From positions 1 to 47,655 of the forward strand of contig CAMKPL010000007.1 in the NCBI GenBank assembly GCA_946414655.1: 47,655 nt of DNA, written 5' to 3'. Of this stretch, positions 198 to 41,714 are shown piece after piece; the stretch's first letter is position 1; each line of letters starts with the position of its first letter. The notes beneath the pieces are model-generated. The model ran no database searches and was not told the origin of the DNA. It saw nothing but the letters and a program-made list of their open reading frames with translations. The position numbers and the translations under genes were made by a program. This stretch comes from an uncultured Caryophanales bacterium. Its GTDB lineage: Bacteria > Bacillota_I > Bacilli_A > RFN20 > CAG-826.

Positions 198-479
198 TTA
201 TGATACGTATTCAGAGTCGGGTGATGCTTCTCTGTAAACCAGGATTCTGTTTCCTGTAAGATTCAACGCAACAGCTTCTTCAGCAGCTTTGTTGTAAGCA
301 GCCCTTTCTTCTCTATTGGATAGGTCCGTTGATTCACAGACTCTAGCCATATAAGCACAAGTATTGTAACCTTTTGCGATGTCAAATCTGTACCAATTGA
401 TAAAATCGTCAAAAGGATTGTAAGGATTGTCAGAAGTCGAAAGCAAACAATCGACAACTTTTCTTTCATTTTCGTTCAT
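198..479 (-). CDS. Conserved small phage protein, unknown function
   Basis: 93 residues, soluble, acidic, no membrane segment. An AAGGAG ribosome site sits 8-9 bases before the ATG. The pattern NPFDDFINWYRFDIAKGYNTC near residues 21-41 (written here only as a landmark) recalls a small protein common in Clostridia phages near the terminase region; that is from memory and gives no function. It is the last gene before the left edge, 17 bases after the RNA polymerase gene, and is probably co-transcribed with it. Confidence 0.75.
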   Translation of the reverse strand: MNENERKVVDCLLSTSDNPYNPFDDFINWYRFDIAKGYNTCAYMARVCESTDLSNREERAAYNKAAEEAVALNLTGNRILVYREASPDSEYVS

Positions 480-496
480 TTGGCTTTCTCCTTTCT

Positions 497-3313
497 TTAA
501 TTCAATTGTTTACGCAAAGTTGTTGTACTGATTCCAAACATGTCAGCAACTTCTTTTTGTGTGAAACCTGAATTAAGCATAGCTTTGGCCCTGGCTATAT
601 TAGCCCCTGACATTACTGCATAGTTTGTCTCTTTAGGGAATGCATGCTTCTTAACTGATTCTTGATCAGCTCTTCGCAAAACATCCTCTAAGAAAGTCTT
701 CTTTAAAGCTCCAGCCTGAATTGCAGACCATTCTTTGTCATTAATCTCAAAAGCACTAGCTTTGTTAAGAATAGCTCTTTGCTGATCCATAACTTGCTTT
801 CTAAGCTTGCTAAGATGCGCTTTGCCATCAGCACTTTTGTTATTGTAACGATCAGGATAGTTCTTCATACGATCATTGACAATGATGGTGGTTACTCTGG
901 CTGCTCTACGCTCCAGTACTGCATTAACTTTCGCAGTATCGACTTTCTCTTTCAATGACTTCACTTCTTCCTCATATAGGTCCGCCATCTTGGGATTGTA
1001 TGGTAAGTCTTCTACCTTAGTGGACTCCAGTCTAGCCTTATTAGCTAAGGCCTTCATCTGGTTAGCATACTTAGCGTATACTAATTCGGTCTGGTACTTA
1101 CCAGGAGATACCAGCTCCATAGCATCCTTGGCCTCCGCCATCTTGGTAGACTCAATGGTCTTAAGCTTGCCAGTAGGATCATACTTAGGATGATTTGGAC
1201 CATAATACTTCCATCTTCCTGTTTCAGGATCAACAGTTTGTCTTTTCTCTGTGTATCGCCAGATCTTTTCACCTGTTTCAGGATCTATCTTACCCTGCCA
1301 TTCTCTGTCAGGAACATGTTCTTCACCACTTGCTTTAGAAATGATAGTACCTGATCCACCATACTTACCATTCTCTTTCTTCTGGTAAATACGCTGGAGT
1401 TCATCTATTCTCATCTCCTCCTTACAAGCTTTCCAATTAAGCTTATGCTTCTCAGCATCAATAATAACCTGAGAATACTTTACAGCACGGGCCATCTCAT
1501 CAGGATCTGCACCTATCAGGTTCATATCTGTAATAAGATTTGTTACGATACCCATCTCTGTCTGCTGCTTGTTATGTTTAATAACAGGCATACCCTCATA
1601 ACCAGGATACTGAGCCTTACCATCAAATCCTTCAAGAGCTTTGAGCTGAGGAGCTGACTTAATAAGACCTTTGTTGTTAGGAATAACTACAACAGTATCT
1701 CCATCGAAGTCTGCGCCTGACAATCTTTCAGCTGCCTTAGGATTCATACACAAAGCATCAGATACATCTGTACCTATCATCGCACGACATTCTCTATTTC
1801 TATTGTTTACTGTAAGAATAGGAATGGCAAACTTTCCTTCATGAGGAAAACGAATAAGAGCAAGCTTATCACCATCTTTGTATCCAGGTGCATAGCATTC
1901 ATCTTCCTTTAGTGTCTTACCAGGAAGAATAACGCAAACACTTTGACCGGGTAATGAAGCTGCTTTCATATGCACAGCAGCTGTGTCGCATTCATCAGCA
2001 AACTCTATAAGCTCTTTTCTTCTAACAACAGGATTACTTATCTTCTGAATTTCTTCATATTGTTCCATAATCTTGGTGCGCTGAAGTTCAAGCTGTCTCT
2101 CAGCAAGACGAGGATCCTGTTTGGATAACACCTGAGTAGCCAATGTTTTAGCTGATGTCCAGTCACCCCATTTTCCTTGCTCATTTACTTTATTAATACA
2201 ACCAAGCTGCTCATTTCCTTTTGAATCTGTATAATGTGTTTGACCACCTCTACAAATCTGAGCACCGAAAGGATCTTCCTGATCTACTGTGCCATCAGGA
2301 TTCTTCTTCATCGGTTTAAGAAACTGCTTTGCATTGTCATCATTAGACATCATAACATATTTCTTATCAGACTTTGGAGTATGAGCAATAATATCGATGC
2401 CAGGAGGAAAATCTTTAGGATCAGCATATACTGCCATTCCTTTAAGATAATGAGTTCCATCAACACCGATACGAACCTGATTGTATCTGTTTTCTCCCAT
2501 ATCCAAATCAGGAACACCACGCTTGATAGAGATAAGACCATCTCTAGGATCATTCCAATCAATCATCACTCGCTTGGAAGATATAGATTTGGGCTGCTCA
2601 ATACCGATTGTGGTTTTATTATTTTCATCAACATGAATATCGCAAGGAGGTTCAATCTTATCAAGATTCACAGAAATATCTCTGAATGCTCTCTTAAGTT
2701 TTTCCTGCTCGCTAAGACCTTTCCACTCTTCAGGTGGAGAATATAAAAACATCATTTCTGTTTCTCTTTTGATGTTGTTAGGATTAGGAACCTTTTTCTT
2801 GATCACCATATATCCTTCATCTTTGAGAACTGTCAATGCTGCCTCTAACTTAGTAGGTGTAACACCCATAATATTCGACACACCTTTGCCGACATCAATT
2901 GCACGAACAGTTTTGTTTTTCTCCATATGTTCGATCAACTTGTCAGCAAGATCTCTTGTATGTCTTACCTGCTCTTCAGTGTCAGGCTTCAACCAAGAAT
3001 TAATAGTAGATTCTGAAACACCCATTTTCTCAGCAATAGCCTTGGGTGACATTTGACGAGTATATCTCAACTCTTTAGCATGCGCAATATTTCCTGCTTT
3101 TGTAGCATCTTTAGCATAAGAATATCTATAGCGCAACTCTTTCATAGTCATGCCGAATTCTTCTGCTATTTCTTTGTCAGACTTACCTTGCTTTCTAAGT
3201 TCAGCCCAACCTTGGAACCAAGGCTCATCCTGATAAGGATGTTTTCCAGATCCCCAAGGATATCTTCCTGAGTGTCTTTTGGTTCCAGTGTGTAAGATAT
3301 AATCGTGTTCCAT
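497..3313 (-). CDS. Single-chain DFDGD RNA polymerase (YonO / crAss gp66-like)
   Basis: 938 residues. The core holds the double-psi beta-barrel signature of two-barrel RNA polymerases, LSGADFDGDT at residues 531-540; D535, D537 and D539 are the expected metal ligands. Upstream, residues 473-503 (DGDKLALIRFP landmark) look like barrel strands. This catalytic motif is shared by cellular beta' subunits, fungal QDE-1, SPbeta YonO and crAss-like phage RNA polymerases; YonO and the crAss-like enzymes work as phage-encoded polymerases. Helix-turn-helix-like stretches lie at about 44-65, 88-107 and 917-937, with a winged-helix-like region at 135-172. The N-terminus carries HTGTKRHSGRYPWGSG, a tag-like motif seen in other phage proteins. 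Start: GAGGAG nine bases before ATG. It lies at the downstream end of the replication operon. Which promoters it reads is unknown. Confidence 0.87.
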   Translation of the reverse strand: MEHDYILHTGTKRHSGRYPWGSGKHPYQDEPWFQGWAELRKQGKSDKEIAEEFGMTMKELRYRYSYAKDATKAGNIAHAKELRYTRQMSPKAIAEKMGVSESTINSWLKPDTEEQVRHTRDLADKLIEHMEKNKTVRAIDVGKGVSNIMGVTPTKLEAALTVLKDEGYMVIKKKVPNPNNIKRETEMMFLYSPPEEWKGLSEQEKLKRAFRDISVNLDKIEPPCDIHVDENNKTTIGIEQPKSISSKRVMIDWNDPRDGLISIKRGVPDLDMGENRYNQVRIGVDGTHYLKGMAVYADPKDFPPGIDIIAHTPKSDKKYVMMSNDDNAKQFLKPMKKNPDGTVDQEDPFGAQICRGGQTHYTDSKGNEQLGCINKVNEQGKWGDWTSAKTLATQVLSKQDPRLAERQLELQRTKIMEQYEEIQKISNPVVRRKELIEFADECDTAAVHMKAASLPGQSVCVILPGKTLKEDECYAPGYKDGDKLALIRFPHEGKFAIPILTVNNRNRECRAMIGTDVSDALCMNPKAAERLSGADFDGDTVVVIPNNKGLIKSAPQLKALEGFDGKAQYPGYEGMPVIKHNKQQTEMGIVTNLITDMNLIGADPDEMARAVKYSQVIIDAEKHKLNWKACKEEMRIDELQRIYQKKENGKYGGSGTIISKASGEEHVPDREWQGKIDPETGEKIWRYTEKRQTVDPETGRWKYYGPNHPKYDPTGKLKTIESTKMAEAKDAMELVSPGKYQTELVYAKYANQMKALANKARLESTKVEDLPYNPKMADLYEEEVKSLKEKVDTAKVNAVLERRAARVTTIIVNDRMKNYPDRYNNKSADGKAHLSKLRKQVMDQQRAILNKASAFEINDKEWSAIQAGALKKTFLEDVLRRADQESVKKHAFPKETNYAVMSGANIARAKAMLNSGFTQKEVADMFGISTTTLRKQLN

Positions 3314-3316
3314 TTT

Positions 3317-3895
3317 TTACTGCTCCTCTCTTTTGATTGACTCTATTAATTTATCAAAAGCTATGATCTTGTCCATGATAGGAGCTATTTGCTCGATACC
3401 AGGATTCTCAATTAAAATATCATCATTCTGATATACTCTTAGCTCTATATCTGTCTCATTAAGATCAAGATCATACTCTAAGAAAAACAGTGCTGCATAT
3501 ATCTCCAGCTGAGGCAAATTTCCATATTTATCTGCTACAGGAGTTGTTCCTGTTTTCAGATCGTGAATCCTAAGAAACCGATCTGTCTCGGAATATGAAA
3601 TTGTGTCAGCTGTACCAAAACAATTATCTGAATAATATAACAACTGTTCTGGCTTCATCCTGAAACCTATTGCGTCGTTTACATATCTATTCAGTGTTGC
3701 TGTGGTTGGTGGTAGCTTGATTCGATTTTCAATCAGCTCTGCAGCTATTGCATGAAGCTTGGTGCCTCGTGCGGTGGCTAAATAACTGTAGTAAGTTTCA
3801 GTCAGCTTATCTTCATCATATGAAAGCCAACTATGCTTGCTTGCGCCTAGGAACGCGTGAGCTCCTGCGAGACGCGAATGCCGATTCCATCTCAT
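3317..3895 (-). CDS. PD-(D/E)XK nuclease, RecB/Cas4-like
   Basis: 192 residues from the preferred start. RecB-family nuclease motifs are visible: H48 in RGTKLH, D97 in CFGTAD, D112 and K114 in HDLKTG, and QLEIYA at 129-134. Such enzymes cut or resect DNA ends and in phages are linked to recombination or replication. Longer starts exist in frame (3937, 3913, 3904), but AGGAGG lies nine bases before the ATG at 3895 and the resulting N-terminus (MRWNRHSRLAGAHAFL) fits relatives. The 5' end, including the ribosome site, lies inside the upstream nuclease gene. Confidence 0.8.
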   Translation of the reverse strand: MRWNRHSRLAGAHAFLGASKHSWLSYDEDKLTETYYSYLATARGTKLHAIAAELIENRIKLPPTTATLNRYVNDAIGFRMKPEQLLYYSDNCFGTADTISYSETDRFLRIHDLKTGTTPVADKYGNLPQLEIYAALFFLEYDLDLNETDIELRVYQNDDILIENPGIEQIAPIMDKIIAFDKLIESIKREEQ

Positions 3896-4160
3896 CCAAT
3901 ACATCCTCCTCATTTTCTGGACTGATGAAAGAAGCATATGACATGCGATTCATTTTTGAAATATAATAAGATTGATTGCTTTGTCTAGAAGCTTTCTTTT
4001 CTCTCTTACATTCCAATGCAGCCCAATTATCTTCGTGAAGGACTAACAGATCAGGTATGCCTTGAATATATCTGGCATCATTCTTCAAGACCATACAACC
4101 AGGAAATCGGTCTTTAATCCTGTCTATTAATCCGGATTGGTATCTGTTCTCATTTTTCAT
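3831..4160 (-). CDS. VRR-NUC domain nuclease
   Basis: 109 residues. A VRR-NUC (PD-(D/E)XK) core is visible: G34-I-P-D37, then E50-x-K52 in LECKRE and Q60/Q64. Phage proteins with this stand-alone domain are expected to act on branched DNA such as Holliday junctions. The start has AAAAGGAG six bases upstream. The gene ends with TAG and its last 65 bases overlap the RecB/Cas4-like gene in another frame, so two related-fold nucleases are made as a coupled pair. Confidence 0.82.
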   Translation of the reverse strand: MKNENRYQSGLIDRIKDRFPGCMVLKNDARYIQGIPDLLVLHEDNWAALECKREKKASRQSNQSYYISKMNRMSYASFISPENEEDVLDEMESAFASRRSSRVPRRKQA

Positions 4161-4254
4161 GACCGTCTCCTTTTAAAAATTAAACAAAAAGTTTTAAGGA
4201 TTGAAAAATATCAAAATCCTCTATAGCGGACCTTGTATATTATCTCTCCCCTCA

Positions 4255-4272
4255 CCATATGGAGTGAAAAAA
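4255..4272 (-). promoter_or_regulatory. Outlying T-tract/CAC promoter-like element
   Basis: On the transcribed strand TTTTTTCACTCCATATGG lies directly after the SF2 helicase stop and about 95 bases before the VRR-NUC start. It matches the recurring TTTTTTCAC-N5-TATWAT element of the 10-27 kb region, but with a poor -10 half. It may instead be only the T-run of a terminator. Confidence 0.4.
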
Positions 4273-5971: not shown

Positions 5972-8900
5972 TTATACTGCTTCCGGGAATGGAATTTCTT
6001 CATCCACTCCATCGGGAACATTAACATTTAACATTTTACTCCAAGGCACACCCTCATAAGGTTTAGGATCTACCAACCACGAGAACTCACCAAATTCCTC
6101 AATGTGAGCTACAGCTTTGTCAGCCATTACAGCATAATAAGAAATATCAATATCCTTTTCCATATTGAGATTCTCAACTACACTTGTTTCCAGCCAACGA
6201 TATCCTTTAGCGCCTTCTGCGCTATACATCTTACCATTCTGATCTCTCAACAGAACTCCGCCTCCCTTACCAGGCAAGATAGGTAAGAATGAACCAACTT
6301 TACCAACGAACACATAATTGTGTTCACCATCCGGCATATCTTCATTCATATCCAAATATAAAGCACTCTTAACAGACTTAGTCTGAGCATAGTCACTTAA
6401 TGTCAATTCTTCTTTACTGAACAATGACTTAAATATAAACGGTTCTGCAAACTCTGCTCCTGTTGCTGTCCATTCTCCAGCAGATCCATCAGATTCGCGA
6501 TATCTTGCAATATAAACTGCATCATTTACTAAGCACATCTTATCATATGTTGCTTCCCACTCAAATTCATAACCATATCTAGCACCAAACTCCATAACAA
6601 AGTCAACAATATCCTGATCAATATCAGGAATCTTAATGGAGTCTGTCTTAATATGTGCAACTGTGTAACCGCGCTTTCTAACTTCTTCAGCAAGGTCAAC
6701 CATAAACAGTGCACCTCTTTTTGCAATAATATTATCTTTATTTCTGCTATCTCTGAACGGATTATCAAAGTTAGCAGATGTCAAACCATAGACAGAGTTA
6801 ATAACTGTCTTCAACGCATTGCTAAGATCTTTAGAACTGATTTCTCCAGAATCGATCATAGCAATATACTTAGTTAACTTACCATCCAAAATATCATTAA
6901 GTTCATCCCAATCTTTTCTCTTGATGGCAATACGACCTTCAATAAGTTCAGCAAATCTTCTTGTGAACCTAGGACCAAATATACATTCAGCCATACCAGA
7001 ATGAGGATGCATTGAAGCAACATCCAATAATCCAACAAGTCCATACATACCAGGTTCGGCATACACATAGCCGCCTTCGCCAACTTCAATTCCCTTATAA
7101 ACACTCTTTCCATTCTCAAAAGAATATCCAGGAAAATACGGCAACAATGAATCTGTGTTTTCAGACCACCACTTCATCATATACGGGAACTTCTCCCATA
7201 AGAAGTCACTTACTTCCGGTTCCAAATATGTTACCGGTTTGCTAAGATCTCTGTAACAGAATTCATCCTGCGGATGCTTATTATCGCCAAATATAATTTT
7301 TGTCGAATGCTGGTTTGTACTGTTGTTAGGTGTCATACCATCAATATCTGCCAGAATAATTCTCGCAAGGTAATCGCCCTTAAGATGGTTAAACACTACT
7401 TCTGTAGACATAACGTCATTCTTACAATACTCTACAACCTGATCCCATAATTCTTCAGGAACTGGCTGATCCCAAGGAAGATTATTTTCCAAATGGTTAA
7501 TACCAAGTTCAATCTCCCATTTCTTCAAACTCTTTTTATTCATCGCAGAACTGAAATCATAAATATCAGTGTAACTCAAGTTGTAAGCATTAAGAAATGT
7601 CGCCTTAGGCTCATTGTTAATAATCCTCTGACTGAGCTTGAACAACTGCTCTTCAGAATATCCAAGAATACGACCATAACAGATATGATTGTCATACCTA
7701 CGATTATTGAATCCTACAAGCTTTTTCTTACAGAATTCTTCAATTGTTTTCGGAGAAGGATTAATCAACCCAACCATATCATCCTTACCATATGTCTTAT
7801 AACACAAGACAAACAGGTTTGGGAACACTTCCACGTCAAATATAACCATAGGATCATCATCCTTATATTCAGGACCACTATTGTTATCGATCACACTATC
7901 AATATCCTGATAGAAGTGCATCTTGCTAACTAACCCAACACAATATTCTGCGTGATTGCTCGAGTTACTAGCAAATGCTAATACTTTAGGACGAAGATCA
8001 CTAACATCATAATCGACTCCTTCCTTGTAAGCATCTTCCAATAACTTGTAAATATAATCTACAGATGGCTTAGTTCCAGGATGATACTCTTTTGCTAAGT
8101 TCTTCATAATCATTGTACGAAGAGCTTTTTCATTACTCACTACAAAATCACTTACCATTTTTACATCTCCTTTCTCTTTTAATGGTAATCCGCTATTAAT
8201 GGTGGCTATCGGCAGATTAACACACTGGGTAAGTTTTCTTCGCAACGATGAGTTACCAGTAAATATCTTAATCTCAATGTCATTGTCATATACATTCTTA
8301 AGCATTGTAGGATCACCATCGTAAATATAATGAAGATGAATGCCTTGACCTGACTTACTCAATTCTGCATATGTTGGCGGAAACTTGTTAGCAGCTTCCA
8401 TATTCAAATATAAACTCTTTTCACCTGTCTCAGGGTCTTTAATATCAAAGTCTATTACAATATGATTCAGTGGTAACTGAACATAATGAAGTAAACCAGT
8501 TTCTAAAGAACTTAATTTTGTTTTAACTTTTTCCCATCGAAGAAATGGTAGACCCTGATTATTAGCATATTGTGCAGGACAATCCTCACATAAAATATCA
8601 AAATTGCTATTTTCAACTTTTTCAAACTTTAACCAAGTTTCTAACTTTTCTTTTACTTTTTCAAATATAATTCCAATCTTCCTAAATCTAAAACCCGAAT
8701 AATAATTTTTAAGTCTCTTATCATCTCTGATAGTATCTGCTGAGAACTTATCAAAATAGTCTTTTAATTCTAACTTAAATCTGATCTTATTAAAAGTATA
8801 TTTCATATCAGATAATTCACAATATCTTTTATAACAATCCCACGCATCAACTAACTTACATCCATTATTTTCATCAAGAAATTCTGTATAACAATCTTCA

Positions 8901-9973
8901 ACAAAATTATACATATCATTAGTTGCTCTAATCATTTTAACAGGATAATATTTATTATAATATTTTGGATCTTCTTTAAATACTTGTAAACACTTATTAG
9001 CTATACGTCCATACTCGAATGGCATATGATACATAATATCATCATACTCATCTCTTTCAAAAGTGTTACCTGTAGGCTCGATATCAATAACTCTTCTTAA
9101 TAAACCTGATCTAGCATCAGTAATCTTAACTTCTCTATTAGCACCAGCAAATATCATTGTTCTGAACTTAGCCTGATACAATTTTTTATGCTTCTCATTA
9201 ACTGTTAATGTTTCGTGAGATATAATACTATTTAATCTGGCATTCTCAGTAATATGATCTAACTCAACATCATCCTGAATAGCTATCAAAGGATTATCGC
9301 TAAGCGTCTCTAACGCAAAATCTTTACCCATACCAATCGACTCAATATTTATAGACGATGTATATCCTCTAAACATTTCATTAATGATTCCCAAAATAGT
9401 AGATTTACCTGTACCAGCATCGCCAACAAATATAAAGAACTTCTGAAGATTAACTGATTCGCCTGCTATAACTGCACCTATCGCATATTCTATTTTTCGG
9501 CGCTCCTCAGGAGAGTATAGACGATCAAGTAATTTGTTCCAATAAATAGGTTCTTCTTTCTCTAATGAGTAAGGAAGTTTAAAGGTGGCATAATCTTCTT
9601 TCTTGGTTACATCATTTTTAAATATAATTTTACCATCTAGCCATTTGTAATAATCATTAGAGTTATTCTTATACCATTTGATAAATTCATCAATACCTTT
9701 TGATAGCGATGAACTTAAATTTTTAACATTAACTTCACATCCTGCATACATAGGATTATTCTTCAACTTTTCTGCATAAGAATATAATTCTTTATCAATT
9801 AACCTTATAGCATCACCACGGTCTTTAGACCATAAACCTTGTTCTTTATCCCAGACTGCATAGAAGCCTCCACCTTTTATCATAATGTCTTTAAACCCGT
9901 ACATACGATAAGAAGCTTCTACTCTTACTTTTCTGTTAGATATTACAACTTCTTTTGGCTCGAAAAAATCCAC
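5972..9973 (-). CDS. Helicase-primase-DNA polymerase fusion
   Basis: 1333 residues from GTG at 9973 (GGAGG eight bases upstream). Domains in order: SF3/D5-like helicase, Walker A G184DAGTGKS191, Walker B around D234-D235, N279 sensor and arginines 293-294; archaeo-eukaryotic-primase-like domain with D508-F-D510, SGQGIHLHY at 541-549 and E567/K569; DnaQ-like 3'-5' exonuclease with D713-V-E715, N757/D761 and Y849/D853; family B polymerase with motif A D984VASMHP, motif B K1055TVINSVYG and motif C K1109TDS. Motif C has Lys where DTDS is usual, but the second Asp (D1111), the metal ligand, is kept. The order helicase-primase-polymerase in one chain is unusual. A strong internal ribosome site precedes M606, exactly between primase and polymerase halves. 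Confidence 0.88.
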   Translation of the reverse strand: MDFFEPKEVVISNRKVRVEASYRMYGFKDIMIKGGGFYAVWDKEQGLWSKDRGDAIRLIDKELYSYAEKLKNNPMYAGCEVNVKNLSSSLSKGIDEFIKWYKNNSNDYYKWLDGKIIFKNDVTKKEDYATFKLPYSLEKEEPIYWNKLLDRLYSPEERRKIEYAIGAVIAGESVNLQKFFIFVGDAGTGKSTILGIINEMFRGYTSSINIESIGMGKDFALETLSDNPLIAIQDDVELDHITENARLNSIISHETLTVNEKHKKLYQAKFRTMIFAGANREVKITDARSGLLRRVIDIEPTGNTFERDEYDDIMYHMPFEYGRIANKCLQVFKEDPKYYNKYYPVKMIRATNDMYNFVEDCYTEFLDENNGCKLVDAWDCYKRYCELSDMKYTFNKIRFKLELKDYFDKFSADTIRDDKRLKNYYSGFRFRKIGIIFEKVKEKLETWLKFEKVENSNFDILCEDCPAQYANNQGLPFLRWEKVKTKLSSLETGLLHYVQLPLNHIVIDFDIKDPETGEKSLYLNMEAANKFPPTYAELSKSGQGIHLHYIYDGDPTMLKNVYDNDIEIKIFTGNSSLRRKLTQCVNLPIATINSGLPLKEKGDVKMVSDFVVSNEKALRTMIMKNLAKEYHPGTKPSVDYIYKLLEDAYKEGVDYDVSDLRPKVLAFASNSSNHAEYCVGLVSKMHFYQDIDSVIDNNSGPEYKDDDPMVIFDVEVFPNLFVLCYKTYGKDDMVGLINPSPKTIEEFCKKKLVGFNNRRYDNHICYGRILGYSEEQLFKLSQRIINNEPKATFLNAYNLSYTDIYDFSSAMNKKSLKKWEIELGINHLENNLPWDQPVPEELWDQVVEYCKNDVMSTEVVFNHLKGDYLARIILADIDGMTPNNSTNQHSTKIIFGDNKHPQDEFCYRDLSKPVTYLEPEVSDFLWEKFPYMMKWWSENTDSLLPYFPGYSFENGKSVYKGIEVGEGGYVYAEPGMYGLVGLLDVASMHPHSGMAECIFGPRFTRRFAELIEGRIAIKRKDWDELNDILDGKLTKYIAMIDSGEISSKDLSNALKTVINSVYGLTSANFDNPFRDSRNKDNIIAKRGALFMVDLAEEVRKRGYTVAHIKTDSIKIPDIDQDIVDFVMEFGARYGYEFEWEATYDKMCLVNDAVYIARYRESDGSAGEWTATGAEFAEPFIFKSLFSKEELTLSDYAQTKSVKSALYLDMNEDMPDGEHNYVFVGKVGSFLPILPGKGGGVLLRDQNGKMYSAEGAKGYRWLETSVVENLNMEKDIDISYYAVMADKAVAHIEEFGEFSWLVDPKPYEGVPWSKMLNVNVPDGVDEEIPFPEAV
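8156..8175 (-). promoter_or_regulatory. Internal ribosome site and ATG inside the replisome gene
   Basis: AGAAAGGAG is followed after eight bases by an in-frame ATG (codon 606). Initiation here would give a 728-residue exonuclease-polymerase without the helicase and primase. If one A were lost from the A4 run at 8177-8180, the upstream frame would stop at TAA just before this ATG, the usual layout of two adjacent phage genes. Confidence 0.6.
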
Positions 9974-10505: not shown

Positions 10506-10525
10506 CATTATATCAAATGAAAAAA
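10506..10525 (-). promoter_or_regulatory. T-tract/CAT/TATAAT promoter-like element
   Basis: Transcribed strand TTTTTTCATTTGATATAATG. The TATAAT is a perfect -10 and lies just upstream of the tRNA-like element and the 77-residue gene. Confidence 0.6.
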
Positions 10526-10902: not shown

Positions 10903-10947
10903 ATAAATTGTTTACGAGACTATTTCTCATTATATGAAGTGAAAAAA
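10903..10947 (-). promoter_or_regulatory. Promoter-like element plus leader hairpin
   Basis: Transcribed strand TTTTTTCACTTCATATAATG at 10947-10928, then GAGA-AATAG-TCTC, then GTAAACAATT and GGAGG. This is a full copy of the recurring terminator-T-run/-10/leader arrangement. Confidence 0.6.
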
Positions 10948-18889: not shown

Positions 18890-18923
18890 AAAAGTTTAGA
18901 GACCAGATTTCTCTGATCTCTAA
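18890..18923 (-). terminator. Terminator of the shared TCAGAGAAATCTGG loop family
   Basis: Arms TTAGAGATCAGA and TCTGGTCTCTAA pair around GAAA, followed by CTTTTTT on the transcript. Near-copies occur at 21401, 22147 and 22669. Confidence 0.8.
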
Positions 18924-18926
18924 ATA

Positions 18927-22109: not shown

Positions 22110-22146
22110 CTTTCTTTCCTCCTGTTTTATAGTTTGCAAAAACCTT

Positions 22147-22170
22147 GGGAACCAGATTTCTCTGATTCCC
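22147..22170 (-). terminator. Terminator of the shared loop family
   Basis: GGGAATCAGA and TCTGGTTCCC arms around GAAA, followed by AAGGTTTTTGC on the transcript. It lies after the Lys/Ala-rich gene. Confidence 0.78.
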
Positions 22171-22188
22171 ATAGTTTCCTAAATTCTT

Positions 22189-22624: not shown

Positions 22625-22667
22625 GAGATAGCACTATTACTACCCCTATTATATCGCGTGAAAAAAC
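22625..22667 (-). promoter_or_regulatory. Promoter-like element plus leader hairpin with TAATAGTG loop
   Basis: TTTTTTCACGCGATATAATAG on the transcribed strand (22667-22647), then GGGGTAG-TAATAGTG-CTATCTC, then ATAAACAATT and AAAGGAGG. It follows a terminator T-run directly. Confidence 0.62.
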
Positions 22668-22668
22668 T

Positions 22669-22694
22669 GAGGTACCAGATTTCTCTGATACCTC
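22669..22694 (-). terminator. Terminator of the shared loop family
   Basis: GAGGTATCAGA and TCTGGTACCTC arms around GAAA, followed by AGTTTTTTCAC; the T-run is also the upstream half of the next promoter-like element. Confidence 0.82.
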
Positions 22695-22947: not shown

Positions 22948-22964
22948 ATTATAAGAGATGAAAA
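22948..22964 (-). promoter_or_regulatory. Promoter-like element
   Basis: Transcribed strand TTTTCATCTCTTATAATG with AAAGGAGG right after. Confidence 0.48.
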
Positions 22965-24465: not shown

Positions 24466-24503
24466 GGATGGGCACTTCCCATCCTATAATATAAAGTGAA
24501 AAA
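24466..24503 (-). promoter_or_regulatory. Promoter-like element plus leader hairpin
   Basis: TTTTTCACTTTATATTATAG on the transcribed strand, then GGATGGG-AAGTG-CCCATCC, then ATTCACAATT and GGAGG. Confidence 0.62.
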
Positions 24504-24506
24504 GCT

Positions 24507-24530
24507 GAGAGGGTATGTTTCAACCCTCTC
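24507..24530 (-). terminator. Intrinsic terminator
   Basis: GAGAGGGT and ACCCTCTC around TGAAACAT, followed by AGCTTTTTCAC. The same loop core occurs in the terminator at 25417. Confidence 0.8.
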
Positions 24531-24892: not shown

Positions 24893-24935
24893 GGAGATAC
24901 ACTATTATACCTCCTATAATATAAAGTGAAAAAAG
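24893..24935 (-). promoter_or_regulatory. Promoter-like element plus leader hairpin with TAATAGTG loop
   Basis: CTTTTTTCACTTTATATTATAG-type element, then GGAGGTA-TAATAGTG-TATCTCC, then GTAAACAATT. The loop matches those at 22625 and 25370. Confidence 0.62.
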
Positions 24936-25369: not shown

Positions 25370-25410
25370 AGAATGGCACTATTACCACTCCTATTATATA
25401 ATGTGAAAAA
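25370..25410 (-). promoter_or_regulatory. Promoter-like element plus leader hairpin with TAATAGTG loop
   Basis: TTTTTCACATTATATAATAG, then GGAGTGG-TAATAGTG-CCATTCT, then GTAAACAATC on the transcribed strand. Confidence 0.62.
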
Positions 25411-25416
25411 TTTAAA

Positions 25417-25436
25417 GGGAGTATGTTTCAACTCCC
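25417..25436 (-). terminator. Intrinsic terminator
   Basis: GGGAGT and ACTCCC around TGAAACAT, followed by TTTAAATTTTTCAC. Confidence 0.72.
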
Positions 25437-25637: not shown

Positions 25638-25660
25638 CCCTATAATAAGGTGTGAAAAAA
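25638..25660 (-). promoter_or_regulatory. Promoter-like element
   Basis: TTTTTTCACACCTTATTATAGGG on the transcribed strand (given in two parts: TTTTTTCACACC, TTATTATAGGG). Confidence 0.6.
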
Positions 25661-25910: not shown

Positions 25911-25931
25911 CCTCATTATAAGAAGTGAAAA
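25911..25931 (-). promoter_or_regulatory. Promoter-like element
   Basis: TTTTCACTTCTTATAATGAG on the transcribed strand. Confidence 0.55.
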
Positions 25932-26359: not shown

Positions 26360-26399
26360 TTATTATGAGCATGCGCTCTCATAATAGAGAGTGAAAAAA
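26360..26399 (-). promoter_or_regulatory. Promoter-like element plus small leader hairpin
   Basis: TTTTTTCACTCTCTATTATG then GAGC-GCAT-GCTC on the transcribed strand. A partial second TTTTTCAC-like unit follows upstream at about 26400-26412. Confidence 0.58.
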
Positions 26400-26637: not shown

Positions 26638-26662
26638 CCTCTCATAATAGGATGTGAAAAAA
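26638..26662 (-). promoter_or_regulatory. Promoter-like element
   Basis: TTTTTTCACATCCTATTATG on the transcribed strand. Confidence 0.6.
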
Positions 26663-26983: not shown

Positions 26984-27028
26984 TAAATGTTGCGAGCACC
27001 ATTGCTCATAATAGGATGTGAAAAAAAA
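26984..27028 (-). promoter_or_regulatory. Promoter-like element plus leader hairpin
   Basis: TTTTTTCACATCCTATTATG then GAGCA-ATGG-TGCTC then GCAACATTTATAGGAGG on the transcribed strand. Confidence 0.6.
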
Positions 27029-27303: not shown

Positions 27304-27344
27304 TTTCATAATAGAAAGTGAAAAAAATATATGAAGTGAAAAAG
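27304..27344 (-). promoter_or_regulatory. Tandem promoter-like element
   Basis: Two T-tract/CAC units in series on the transcribed strand: CTTTTTCACTTCATATAT then TTTTTTTCACTTTCTATTATG (20-base core). AAAGGAGG follows the second at once. Confidence 0.58.
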
Positions 27345-27639: not shown

Positions 27640-27680
27640 TACGGATAGCACTCACTATCCTATAATAAGGTGTGAAAAAA
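27640..27680 (-). promoter_or_regulatory. Promoter-like element plus leader hairpin
   Basis: TTTTTTCACACCTTATTATAG then GGATAG-TGAGTG-CTATCC then GTAAATAAAG on the transcribed strand. Confidence 0.62.
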
Positions 27681-39517: not shown

Positions 39518-39556
39518 CCTCCTATTTGCTGTGTTTTACTACCATTTTGATGTTAA
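39518..39556 (-). repeat. 39-base leader repeat, copy A
   Basis: Differs at only three positions from 40467-40505. It carries CATCAAAATGG next to the stop of the second MKWG paralog and ends in the tape measure's AGGAGG. Confidence 0.85.
39542..39552 (-). repeat. CATCAAAATGG word, copy 1
   Basis: Directly adjacent to the stop codon of the second MKWG paralog, upstream of the tape measure gene. Confidence 0.8.
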
Positions 39557-40362
39557 CTATAATATTTTGCTATTTTATTCCAGTCTTCGGTAAAACTTCC
39601 AACTTTATAATCTACAGGATATACATAACAAGATACTTCGGGCATAGTTATAACTTTATCCGTATCTTTAATTTCCATCATTTTATTTAAAACTCCCATA
39701 GAATAAGAATTATCCGTTAAATATGCTATATAAGGATCATACAACGAAAAACCAGATTTTTCTTCAAGTGCCTCTTTTACTTCATATTTAGCCTTTTGCC
39801 AATTTGTAGTCCCAACTTGTTCTTCGCCTATATCTCCTAAATCTTCCAAAATTTTGTTTGCTCTATTTTGTATTTCTTCATAATATTCATCTCTTGCTTT
39901 GTCAGCTTTGTTCATAATATCAATTATTTCTTTTTTACTTTTACCTTGATTAATCAAATAAGCCATTGTAACTTCGCCTCCTTGATCAAGATCATCTCCT
40001 ATTATACTATTTTTATAACGATAAGATGATTCTTTATCATTAGGATAGTACATTTCTTTCATTGTACTTGCTAAAAGATCAACAGCTTTATTATATTCAT
40101 GTTTATCATTATAAGATTGTTTCAATGGATTTACAATATCATCATATTCTTTTTTCTTTTGTAATTCTGATTCAGAAGGATTAAAATTTTTAGAATGTTT
40201 TTCTATAATTTTATTAATACCTTCAGCTCTTTGTTTACTATAAGCTTCTGTTGAAGAAACAACTTTTTTAATATCGTTAACCCTATCTTTAGCGTATCTA
40301 TTTTTACCAGCTTCTGTCAAAGTACCGTCAGGATTTTGATACCGACGAATACCCCATTTCAT
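39553..40362 (-). CDS. MKWG-motif protein, paralog 2 (N-terminus cut by TAG)
   Basis: 269 residues from the first internal ATG; MKWGIRRYQNPDGTLTEAGK at the start is the phage 'GMKWGxRRYQNxDGTLT' motif. The rest is Lys/Glu-rich and helical. The natural start is probably the ATG at 40461 with AGGAGG, which reads five codons (MNDFR), then TAG, then stays open to the motif (FSRQYNDYLQ...CHFGILG). No good ribosome site precedes the internal ATG. Role unknown; the motif elsewhere accompanies head and protease proteins. Confidence 0.62.
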   Translation of the reverse strand: MKWGIRRYQNPDGTLTEAGKNRYAKDRVNDIKKVVSSTEAYSKQRAEGINKIIEKHSKNFNPSESELQKKKEYDDIVNPLKQSYNDKHEYNKAVDLLASTMKEMYYPNDKESSYRYKNSIIGDDLDQGGEVTMAYLINQGKSKKEIIDIMNKADKARDEYYEEIQNRANKILEDLGDIGEEQVGTTNWQKAKYEVKEALEEKSGFSLYDPYIAYLTDNSYSMGVLNKMMEIKDTDKVITMPEVSCYVYPVDYKVGSFTEDWNKIAKYYS

Positions 40363-40443
40363 TCCAAGGATTCCAAAATGGCAAATATAATCTTCTGCAT
40401 AGGGTAAACTATGTTGAAGATAATCGTTATACTGTCTTGAAAA

Positions 40444-40461
40444 CTATCTAAAATCGTTCAT
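40444..40461 (-). other. Cut-off start codon and in-frame TAG of paralog 2
   Basis: ATG at 40461-40459 with AGGAGG upstream, codons MNDFR, then TAG at 40446-40444, in frame with the remaining 302 codons. TAG ends at least five other genes here, so it is probably a true stop. Confidence 0.7.
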
Positions 40462-40466
40462 GACAT

Positions 40467-40505
40467 CCTCCTATTTGTTGCGTTTTACTGCCATTTTGAT
40501 GTTAA
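40467..40505 (-). repeat. 39-base leader repeat, copy B
   Basis: Near-identical to 39518-39556; evidence that the gene with its leader was duplicated. Confidence 0.85.
40491..40501 (-). repeat. CATCAAAATGG word, copy 2
   Basis: Directly adjacent to the stop codon of the first MKWG paralog. Confidence 0.8.
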
Positions 40506-41128
40506 TTCTTTCTTCTCGGTTTGAGTGCTCCGTATCTACGAGAACTTTGCAGTATTTCCATCATATCGGATCTTGCGAGATTGCCTCCAGAAGACTCGTT
40601 TATTATCTGCTGTTTCTCTTCGTTAGACAAATAACTCCTGTCAGGACGTGAGATTACCATTCCGCCAACACCCATCGTCGGCATCATTACAGCATTAACA
40701 GCCGCTGATGTAAGTAAACTAGTTACCAGAGCTTTTGTCTCTTTTGATCTTCTTTCAGCAGAAAGTTCAGAAACTGGTGTGTTTTCGATCTTTTTAATTT
40801 CTGCTTCAGCAAGATCCTTATAAGCCTTAGCTCTATAAGAAGATCTAGCAAACTTAGACATATACTTTTGTACCTTTTTATCATTACCTTTCACCGCTGC
40901 ATCACGTGCTTTACCAAGAGTACGAGCCATATATTTTTCTTCGTTTTTATAATACTTTTTATAATGACTGTCGACGAGATCCTTTTCTTCTTCTCTTTCC
41001 TTGCTATACTGCTTTTTACCAAGTTCAGTTAAAGTACCATCAGGATTTTGGTATCGTCTAATACCCCAACGCATTCCAAGAATTCCATAATGCATCAGAT
41101 AGTCACTATAATCCCTATAACTATTGTT
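40502..41128 (-). CDS. MKWG-motif protein, paralog 1
   Basis: 208 residues from ATG at 41128 (AGGAGG upstream). N-terminus MNNSYRDYSDYLMHYGILGM leads into RWGIRRYQNPDGTLTELGK. The rest is Lys-rich helix with a hydrophobic patch at about 120-140 (SLLTSAAVNAVMMPTMGVGG). A tandem paralog follows. Place between tail chaperone and tape measure is unusual for this motif. Confidence 0.7.
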   Translation of the reverse strand, partial: NNSYRDYSDYLMHYGILGMRWGIRRYQNPDGTLTELGKKQYSKEREEEKDLVDSHYKKYYKNEEKYMARTLGKARDAAVKGNDKKVQKYMSKFARSSYRAKAYKDLAEAEIKKIENTPVSELSAERRSKETKALVTSLLTSAAVNAVMMPTMGVGGMVISRPDRSYLSNEEKQQIINESSGGNLARSDMMEILQSSRRYGALKPRRKN

Positions 41129-41144
41129 CATTCTTTTTATCCTC

Positions 41145-41714
41145 CTATCCTTTACTGTGCAACTTAGCACGTCTTGCCTTGTTTAATGCCGCATTTTCAG
41201 CAAGTATGTCTTTCTTGCTCATCTTTTCCGGGTTATTTTTAGCGTTGCAAACCCTAATTAACGTTATTAATCTATTCAAATGCCACTTCTGAAACTCAAT
41301 CGGAATCTGAAGGGCTATCATTTCCCAATAAATTACTTCTGAAGTAAGTATTTCTTTCTGTTTAGGTTTACCCTTTTTACCACCGGGTTTAGGTTTATCA
41401 TCTCTAAACCAAGTAGCAGTCATTGTATCGTTTATGTATTCTACGATCTTCTTGACATCCTCTTCGGTAAGACATAGATACACATTCGGATCTGGATTTT
41501 GAGGAGTTATGGTCATACACTCGAAATAATACAACTTCTTATCAAGTGTATCTAATGCTCCTTCTACTAAAAAAGGTTTCTTGTATTTCGCTTCCCATTT
41601 AGAAATCGAGAGGAGGGAATGCTCCATAACAAGTTTCGTCTCTTTGACGGTGATGAACCTTTGCGTATCCTCATCGAATAGCTCATTAGGCGGTACATTT
41701 ATTGTTAACGGCAT
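41145..41714 (-). CDS. Tail assembly chaperone, second (gpGT-like)
   Basis: 189 residues from ATG at 41714 (GGGAGG eight bases upstream). LEHSLLSISKWE and KWHLNRLITLIRVCN-like segments match the second tail chaperone of Clostridia siphophages. It is in the same frame as the first chaperone but behind several stops, so no frameshift makes it. Ends TAG, which is part of the next AGGAGG. Confidence 0.78.
   Translation of the reverse strand: MPLTINVPPNELFDEDTQRFITVKETKLVMEHSLLSISKWEAKYKKPFLVEGALDTLDKKLYYFECMTITPQNPDPNVYLCLTEEDVKKIVEYINDTMTATWFRDDKPKPGGKKGKPKQKEILTSEVIYWEMIALQIPIEFQKWHLNRLITLIRVCNAKNNPEKMSKKDILAENAALNKARRAKLHSKG

Follow-up and report, generated by a model that had tools for sequence, protein, structure and literature searches.

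The window, that is, the whole stretch of 47,655 nucleotides that was analysed, encodes a phage protein that is best explained as a single-chain DNA-dependent RNA polymerase that is packaged in the virion, injected, and starts transcription at repeated elements. This explanation as a whole is considered moderately likely. It is built on a set of computed results, namely the fold, a conserved catalytic motif, a leader shared with genes of the packaging module, co-occurrence with DUF7211, and an element tied to polymerase-bearing phages.

Polymerase gene and predicted fold

The open reading frame (ORF) on which the earlier note was based is real; it starts with ATG and encodes 938 amino acids. 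The following features were assigned to it:

497..3313, minus strand: gene of the predicted single-chain two-barrel RNA polymerase, 938 aa, phrog_4291 (ORF, profile match, AF2 model, structure alignment)
3233..3301, minus strand: N-terminal leader, residues 5-27 (YILHTGTKRHSGRYPWGSGKHPY), putative packaging tag, DUF7211-type variant (conservation; disordered; found on terminase/portal genes)
2918..3208, minus strand: N-terminal helix-turn-helix (HTH) region, residues 36-132 (Pfam; model helices)
1019..2602, minus strand: predicted two-barrel polymerase core, residues 238-765 (Foldseek, VIA alignment of the model)
1697..1711, minus strand: putative metal-binding DFDGD, residues 535-539 (sequence; invariant in 57 sequences)
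503..607, minus strand: C-terminal HTH, residues 903-937 (Pfam; model)

Because of its E-value of 2.1e-268, the match of residues 2-937 to positions 8-905 of the 909 in the phrog_4291 profile is far above chance. The protein is a member of this family, with a full-length match and similar neighbours in the genomes read. Relatives with about 33-42 % identity were found by tblastn in 250 phage records, and 249 of them cover at least 80 % of the polymerase. The hosts of these phages include Arthrobacter, Gordonia, Streptomyces and Lactococcus, among others. The family is thus already present in databases, where its members are recorded as RNA-dependent RNA polymerase, HTH protein, hypothetical, tail fiber or structural protein; 'helix-turn-helix DNA-binding domain protein' is the phrog_4291 label in actinophage records. 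These record names mention no promoter and no role as a virion polymerase, and a literature search on the family name returned nothing relevant. With NCBIfam, only HTH- and sigma-like fragments of the polymerase were recognized.

The HTH-like stretches previously noted at both ends were recovered as Pfam matches near each terminus. HTH_23 matches two stretches (best at 84-109, E 1.1e-11) and Sigma70_r4_2 matches residues 82-108 (E 2.6e-10), while HTH_3 (910-935) and HTH_7 (905-935) match the C-terminal end. The motif LSGADFDGDT is present at residues 531-540, as described before, and S532-D539 shows no variation in an alignment of 57 sequences, comprising the window's polymerase and relatives from fetched contigs. 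The homologue in Lactococcus phage 1706 is deposited as a structural protein, which would suit a degenerate or structural protein that kept the fold and lost catalysis. However, the invariance of the catalytic Asp and flanking residues across these divergent sequences makes such a loss very improbable.

The AF2 model built on the 57 sequences reached a pLDDT of 83 and a pTM of 0.71. The earlier note had proposed a two-barrel polymerase, a reading that depends on paired double-psi barrels; these are seen in the model, and the attempted refutation failed. Among solved structures, the top Foldseek match was QDE-1 (E 5.5e-10), and RDR2, P74 gp62 and P32 gp64 were also found. The model core (238..765) aligns with QDE-1 with a VIA-align Z-score of 14.6 and an rmsd of 4.1 over 355 residues, and the model aligns with the Thermus-phage polymerases P74 gp62 and P32 gp64 at Z 11.8 and 11.4, respectively. 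Taken by itself, the DFDGD barrel (458-555) matches double-psi barrels at Z of about 10.9 and an rmsd of 1.8, including p97-N (Z 10.9). In BFVD, the model matches the P23-45 protein A7XX94 (E 5e-5). At the sequence level, the single polymerase sequence had no match among solved structures, and its profile gave weak HTH and unrelated matches as well as the P23-45 tape measure/RNAP chain 8h2n at E 0.3. With a QDE-1-like pair of double-psi barrels and DxDxD in the second barrel, the modelled protein is a member of the two-barrel superfamily, and its predicted activity as an RNA polymerase is very likely.

QDE-1 and RDR2, the best solved structural matches with both barrels covered, are cellular enzymes acting in RNA interference, whereas the leader and the flanking HTH domains are features of the phage family. 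Both of these closest folds copy RNA, QDE-1 also DNA. Together with the label 'RNA-dependent RNA polymerase' in databases and the nearby nuclease and recombination genes, this would suit an RNA-dependent or primer-making polymerase for replication or repair. Such a role is improbable: the phage has its own primase-polymerase (5972-9973), transcription accords with the fused HTH domains and the promoter-like repeats found across the lineage, and the deposited name of P32 gp64 is RNA polymerase. The eukaryotic-type RNA-dependent RNA polymerase family PF05183 reached 17.1 bits, below its cut-off of 23.8, and covered residues 527-631 only.

Single-chain two-barrel phage polymerases are already known. 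SPbeta YonO, to which the protein had been compared, resembles it in fold and mechanism, being a phage-encoded single chain of similar length with a DxDGD motif and, according to the literature, of the two-barrel type. The comparison does not extend to the family, since YonO belongs to a separate PHROG (phrog_8308) and has no profile match (hhalign against alignment A2: probability 0.4, 20 columns). YonO also carries no such leader and reads DNDGD, not DFDGD as had been stated. The second protein named for comparison, gp66 of the crAss-like phage phi14:2, is much larger than the window polymerase; it was not among the top structural matches listed, which says nothing for or against a likeness. 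It is cited in PMC10770324 as a single-chain two-barrel polymerase of the virion.

Gene neighbourhood

The polymerase gene had been described as the end of the replication operon. It does lie near the end, but is the penultimate gene, as a small gene follows it:

198..479, minus strand: conserved small gene (phrog_4303), possible polymerase partner (profile match; synteny)
3317..3937, minus strand: Cas4-like exonuclease (phrog_3953), conserved upstream neighbour (profile match; synteny)
3831..4160, minus strand: endonuclease (phrog_93), conserved upstream neighbour (profile match; synteny; position of the VRR-Nuc genes in relatives)
4254..4270, minus strand: degenerate promoter-like element, upstream of the endonuclease-exonuclease-polymerase genes

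The small gene follows the polymerase in every genome read, with 34-44 % identity to the window's copy, and its product contains a conserved LSTSDNPYNPF..W. In the seven phage genomes examined, the polymerase gene closes the early/replication block or lies close to its end. The order VRR-type nuclease, Cas4-like exonuclease and polymerase is common to the actinophages and the window, while several genes separate exonuclease and polymerase in phage 1706. The 1333-aa protein encoded at 5972-9973 matches phrog_4210, a DNA polymerase family, from end to end, and its segment at about 109-433 matches primase families; it is a primase/helicase-polymerase fusion that is conserved in the lineage.

N-terminal leader

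Residues 8-23 of the leader (HTGTKRHSGRYPWGSG, pattern HxGxxRxSGRYPWGSG) have a mean column conservation of 0.86, compared to 0.87 for the DFDGD segment and 0.62 for the whole polymerase. Most of these residues have a pLDDT below 50 and are predicted to be disordered. A peptide scan of IMG/VR for the leader returned mostly polymerases, but also non-polymerase ORFs, three of them in tandem in contig L035 and one in L068. Scanning for GHSGRYPWG yielded 46 ORFs, 31 polymerases and 15 others. Three contigs, in which terminase and portal were named by likeness to a relative's genes rather than by a family search, place such ORFs close to these genes or to the polymerase. Between terminase and portal, L426 has three leader ORFs as well as an HYGIKGQSWG ORF, and one leader ORF adjoins a DUF7211-type tagged gene. 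In L430, five ORFs with the leader or a near variant flank the terminase ahead of the portal, and in L437 a leader ORF lies within 5 kb of the polymerase. Furthermore, an SGRYPWGSG-led protein in L035 with a GNAT part and, in our reading, a SLOG-like part is homologous to a DUF7211-tagged protein in L304 (E 1.4e-39). Therefore, the SGRYPWGSG and DUF7211 leaders occur on the same cargo.

A comparison of the polymerase leader and DUF7211 leader profiles scored 15.9, while 60 column-shuffled controls scored 7.9 at most. The hhalign probability was 3 %, both leaders being too short for a significant homology score. At a cut-off of 27 bits, the DUF7211 model matches the polymerase of D_HF4_2 weakly (15.8 bits, E 6.5e-4) and the ReqiPoco6 leader at 15.0 bits; the leader of the window polymerase has no match to it. 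The polymerase leader thus differs from DUF7211 in carrying SGRYPWGSG after HxG and in scoring below the cut-off. Nevertheless, it can be regarded as a putative virion-packaging tag, a variant of the DUF7211-type leader.

DUF7211-tagged proteins

DUF7211 (Pfam PF23847) is a family of unknown function. Its proteins have an N-terminal HYG...WG leader, HYGxKGMKWG being the commoner form of the tag, and unrelated C-terminal parts, and their genes are located near terminase and portal in the same phages. In the fetched loci, 394 complete ORFs carry the tag, which in 347 of them lies no more than 60 residues from the start. The sequences that come after the tag form 114 single-linkage clusters, and matches among 78 of these include a papain-fold deamidase (2), P-loop kinase and NTPase families, portal, and the 'virion structural protein' phrog_35934 (29). 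In annotated genomes the tagged genes adjoin terminase and portal; in the window, two tagged ORFs stand between tail genes:

40502..41182, minus strand: DUF7211-type tagged protein (DYLMHYGILGMRWGIRRYQNPDG), putative co-packaged protein (tag sequence)
39553..40380, minus strand: second DUF7211-type tagged ORF (HFGILGMKWG; tag sequence), with an in-frame stop at the 5' end

The stop in the second ORF is a TAG a few codons past the likely start (MNDFR*; region 40343-40526), and the frame is open in a related contig (L405). The tagged proteins in alignment A3 (loci L046-L405) have papain-fold deamidase, P-loop kinase, STAND-like and acetyltransferase/SLOG-like parts and look like injected effectors.

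DUF7211 is present in seven of eight polymerase-bearing phage records, the eighth being a 23-kb fragment, but in none of ten phages of the same genera without the polymerase and none of 14 cellular controls. Across 50,697 records, the counts per genus of tag-bearing and polymerase-bearing phages are near-identical. Thirteen tag-bearing contigs in IMG/VR are 30 kb or longer, and 10 of them contain the polymerase; the remaining three, without a detectable polymerase, may be incomplete.

Probable virion location

In the record of Lactococcus phage 1706 (EU081845), orf75, the polymerase, is deposited as 'structural protein', and so is orf7, which carries DUF7211. This plain label probably stems from a virion proteome, because predictions in EU081845 are marked as 'putative'. 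If it goes back to mass spectrometry, contaminants might be among the proteins so labelled. The ReqiPoco6 polymerase is labelled structural by similarity. Packaging of the polymerase in the virion is considered probable because of the sharing of the leader, its exchange with DUF7211 on the same cargo, the co-occurrence with DUF7211 and the 1706 label.

Since the polymerase gene is grouped with replication genes, its product could also be made early and used inside the cell. In this case, it would be a non-virion polymerase, as has been reported for YonO, made from a host-transcribed operon and transcribing middle or late genes, and the leader would bind a phage or host partner or have another role. 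The position in the replication operon agrees with this, as do the late genes that come next across the genome end in related complete genomes and the transcription of SPbeta late genes by YonO (PMC5467207). However, the leader is common to unrelated proteins of the terminase-portal module, 1706 orf75 is deposited as structural, and the promoter-like elements precede early genes and are missing from the late region. A non-virion role is therefore judged rather unlikely, though it is the foremost competitor to packaging.

For a packaged polymerase, phage P23-45 is a close precedent, as AT-rich motifs ahead of its pre-early genes have been attributed to its virion two-barrel polymerase (PMC10770324). 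The P23-45 virion (gp96) and non-virion (gp64) enzymes, P74 gp62 and P32 gp64 are two-barrel phage polymerases like the one described here. Unlike in the P23-45, P74 and P32 enzymes, HTH domains flank the core in the window polymerase. The polymerase in the P23-45 virion is a fusion with the tape measure protein, whereas a short transferable leader would do the loading here.

Promoter-like elements

The promoters, which the earlier note had called unknown, now have candidates before the early genes. A pattern scan of the window's minus strand for TTTTCAC-N4-TATWAT found 12 strict copies, or 14 when CAT is allowed, compared to a mean of 0.07 in a Markov control. The spacer is always four bases long, and all copies are on one strand:

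10507..10523, minus strand: promoter-like element, CAT variant
10929..10945, minus strand: promoter-like element TTTTCAC-N4-TATWAT
22648..22664, minus strand: promoter-like element
22948..22964, minus strand: promoter-like element, CAT variant
24486..24502, minus strand: promoter-like element
24916..24932, minus strand: promoter-like element
25393..25409, minus strand: promoter-like element
25642..25658, minus strand: promoter-like element
25915..25931, minus strand: promoter-like element
26381..26397, minus strand: promoter-like element
26644..26660, minus strand: promoter-like element
27008..27024, minus strand: promoter-like element
27308..27324, minus strand: promoter-like element
27662..27678, minus strand: promoter-like element, first of the early region

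The copies fall into two groups, one where the early region begins (22.6-27.7 kb) and another at 10.5-10.9 kb. None was found in the late region of the window or of the five best-covered genomes. The counterpart of the degenerate element at 4254-4270 is intact in a 90 % relative (L002, position 7053), and the element also stands directly ahead of the nuclease-polymerase genes in Circum (54415), ReqiPoco6 (73867) and Qui (109736).

Motif discovery without the window pattern found TACACGGGCTATAAT in Circum and ACATACACTATAGTA in 1706, with the same layout as in the window. Across the lineage, the element approximates TTACAC-N4-TATAATGAG with fixed spacing, upstream of early genes. The general pattern WWNCAYNNNNTATWRTRRR has 50 matches in the eight polymerase-bearing phages (ReqiPoco6 13, Tanis 12, 1706 9, Qui 7, Circum 5, LibertyBell 3, D_HF4_2 1 and contig89 0), all in gene direction and none in reverse, compared to no match for a mirrored control pattern in the same phages and one match of the general pattern in ten phages without the polymerase from the same five host genera. 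As this pattern was designed partly from the tested phages themselves, the contrast to the controls and the strand bias carry weight rather than the raw count. The repeated element is the best candidate for the promoter.

The element contains the hexamer TATAAT, the standard -10 sequence that host sigma factors also read. Hence, it might instead be read by the host RNA polymerase as an extended -10 type promoter together with a phage transcription factor, the phage polymerase using other sites. At least four of six matches to TTGACA at a spacing of 15-19 occur in 12 of 38 copies, which is judged not far from chance, and no consistent -35 hexamer was found upstream of the copies. Moreover, the upstream and spacer pattern is alike in phages of low-GC and high-GC hosts, and the element is absent from the same-genus phages without the polymerase apart from the single match. 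Reading by the host enzyme is therefore unlikely, while reading by the phage polymerase is likely, judging from these sequence patterns. A sigma-70 scan of the window found promoter-like sites at chance level.

The T tract of the window element partly overlaps terminator tails. D_HF4_2 shows the element poorly; the majority of the CAC-N4-TATAGG copies in this genome are terminators with a hairpin. The repeated CACGGGTTATAGG copies in this phage were rejected as promoters and counted as terminators because hairpins precede their T runs. In the window, intergenic hairpins at 18895-18924, 22146-22171 and 22669-22694 form a repeated terminator-like family with the common core ATCAGAGAAATCTGG, differing paired outer stems and a T tail. 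A second hairpin type with the loop GTTGAAACATAC occurs at 24507-24530 and 25417-25436, directly upstream of promoter-like elements.

Proposed mechanism and significance

In the proposed mechanism, the polymerase core (238-765) would hold Mg2+ with D535, D537 and D539, and the fused HTH domains at both ends may aid promoter binding without a host sigma factor, doing sigma-like work. The short leader HxGxxRxSGRYPWGSG may serve as a tag for packaging, akin to the leader of DUF7211, so that the polymerase would be loaded into the head and enter a new cell with the DNA. There, it would start transcription at the CAC-N4-TATAAT-type elements ahead of the early genes; one such element may also precede its own operon. 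Its activity, packaging, promoter recognition and timing are what we infer from the computed evidence.

A broader claim, whose chances appear evenly balanced, is that a widespread siphophage lineage infecting Lactococcus, Clostridia and Streptomyces loads a set of proteins into the capsid via a single N-terminal tag that is short and transferable, DUF7211 HYG...WG with its SGRYPWGSG variant. The polymerase would be one of these proteins besides acetyltransferase-, SLOG-, deamidase- and kinase-like cargo, and would provide a start independent of the host RNA polymerase from a conserved promoter of its own.

Should this be true, 250 or more of the phages sequenced from well-studied hosts would bring their own polymerase in the particle, which would explain how early transcription starts in them. 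Both the promoter (about TTACAC-N4-TATAATGAG) and the packaging tag of these phages would be readable, DUF7211 would gain a function, and injected proteins would become predictable. The compact polymerase-promoter pair could also be of use for tool building. Because 1706 and the actinophage members are culturable, each of these claims is directly testable. Literature searches for the tag string and the element string found no phage paper; since the library searched is incomplete, these negatives on the leader, DUF7211 and the element are not proof of novelty.

Related genomes

The host of the phage is uncertain: the window's assembly (G000) comprises 1.21 Mb at 97 % completeness, and an identical polymerase occurs in a 3.4-Mb record labelled uncultured Pseudobutyrivibrio. 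The window contig stops short of terminase, portal and capsid. A close relative of 60,511 bp with an identical polymerase, CAMJBT010000012.1, carries ORFs for all three, as assigned by size, order and sequence resemblance. The possibility that both contigs are the same was rejected, as they are close relatives whose sequences diverge. The ends of CAMJBT010000012.1 (L403-L406) are identical over 17 bases, which points to a possibly complete genome assembled as a circle.
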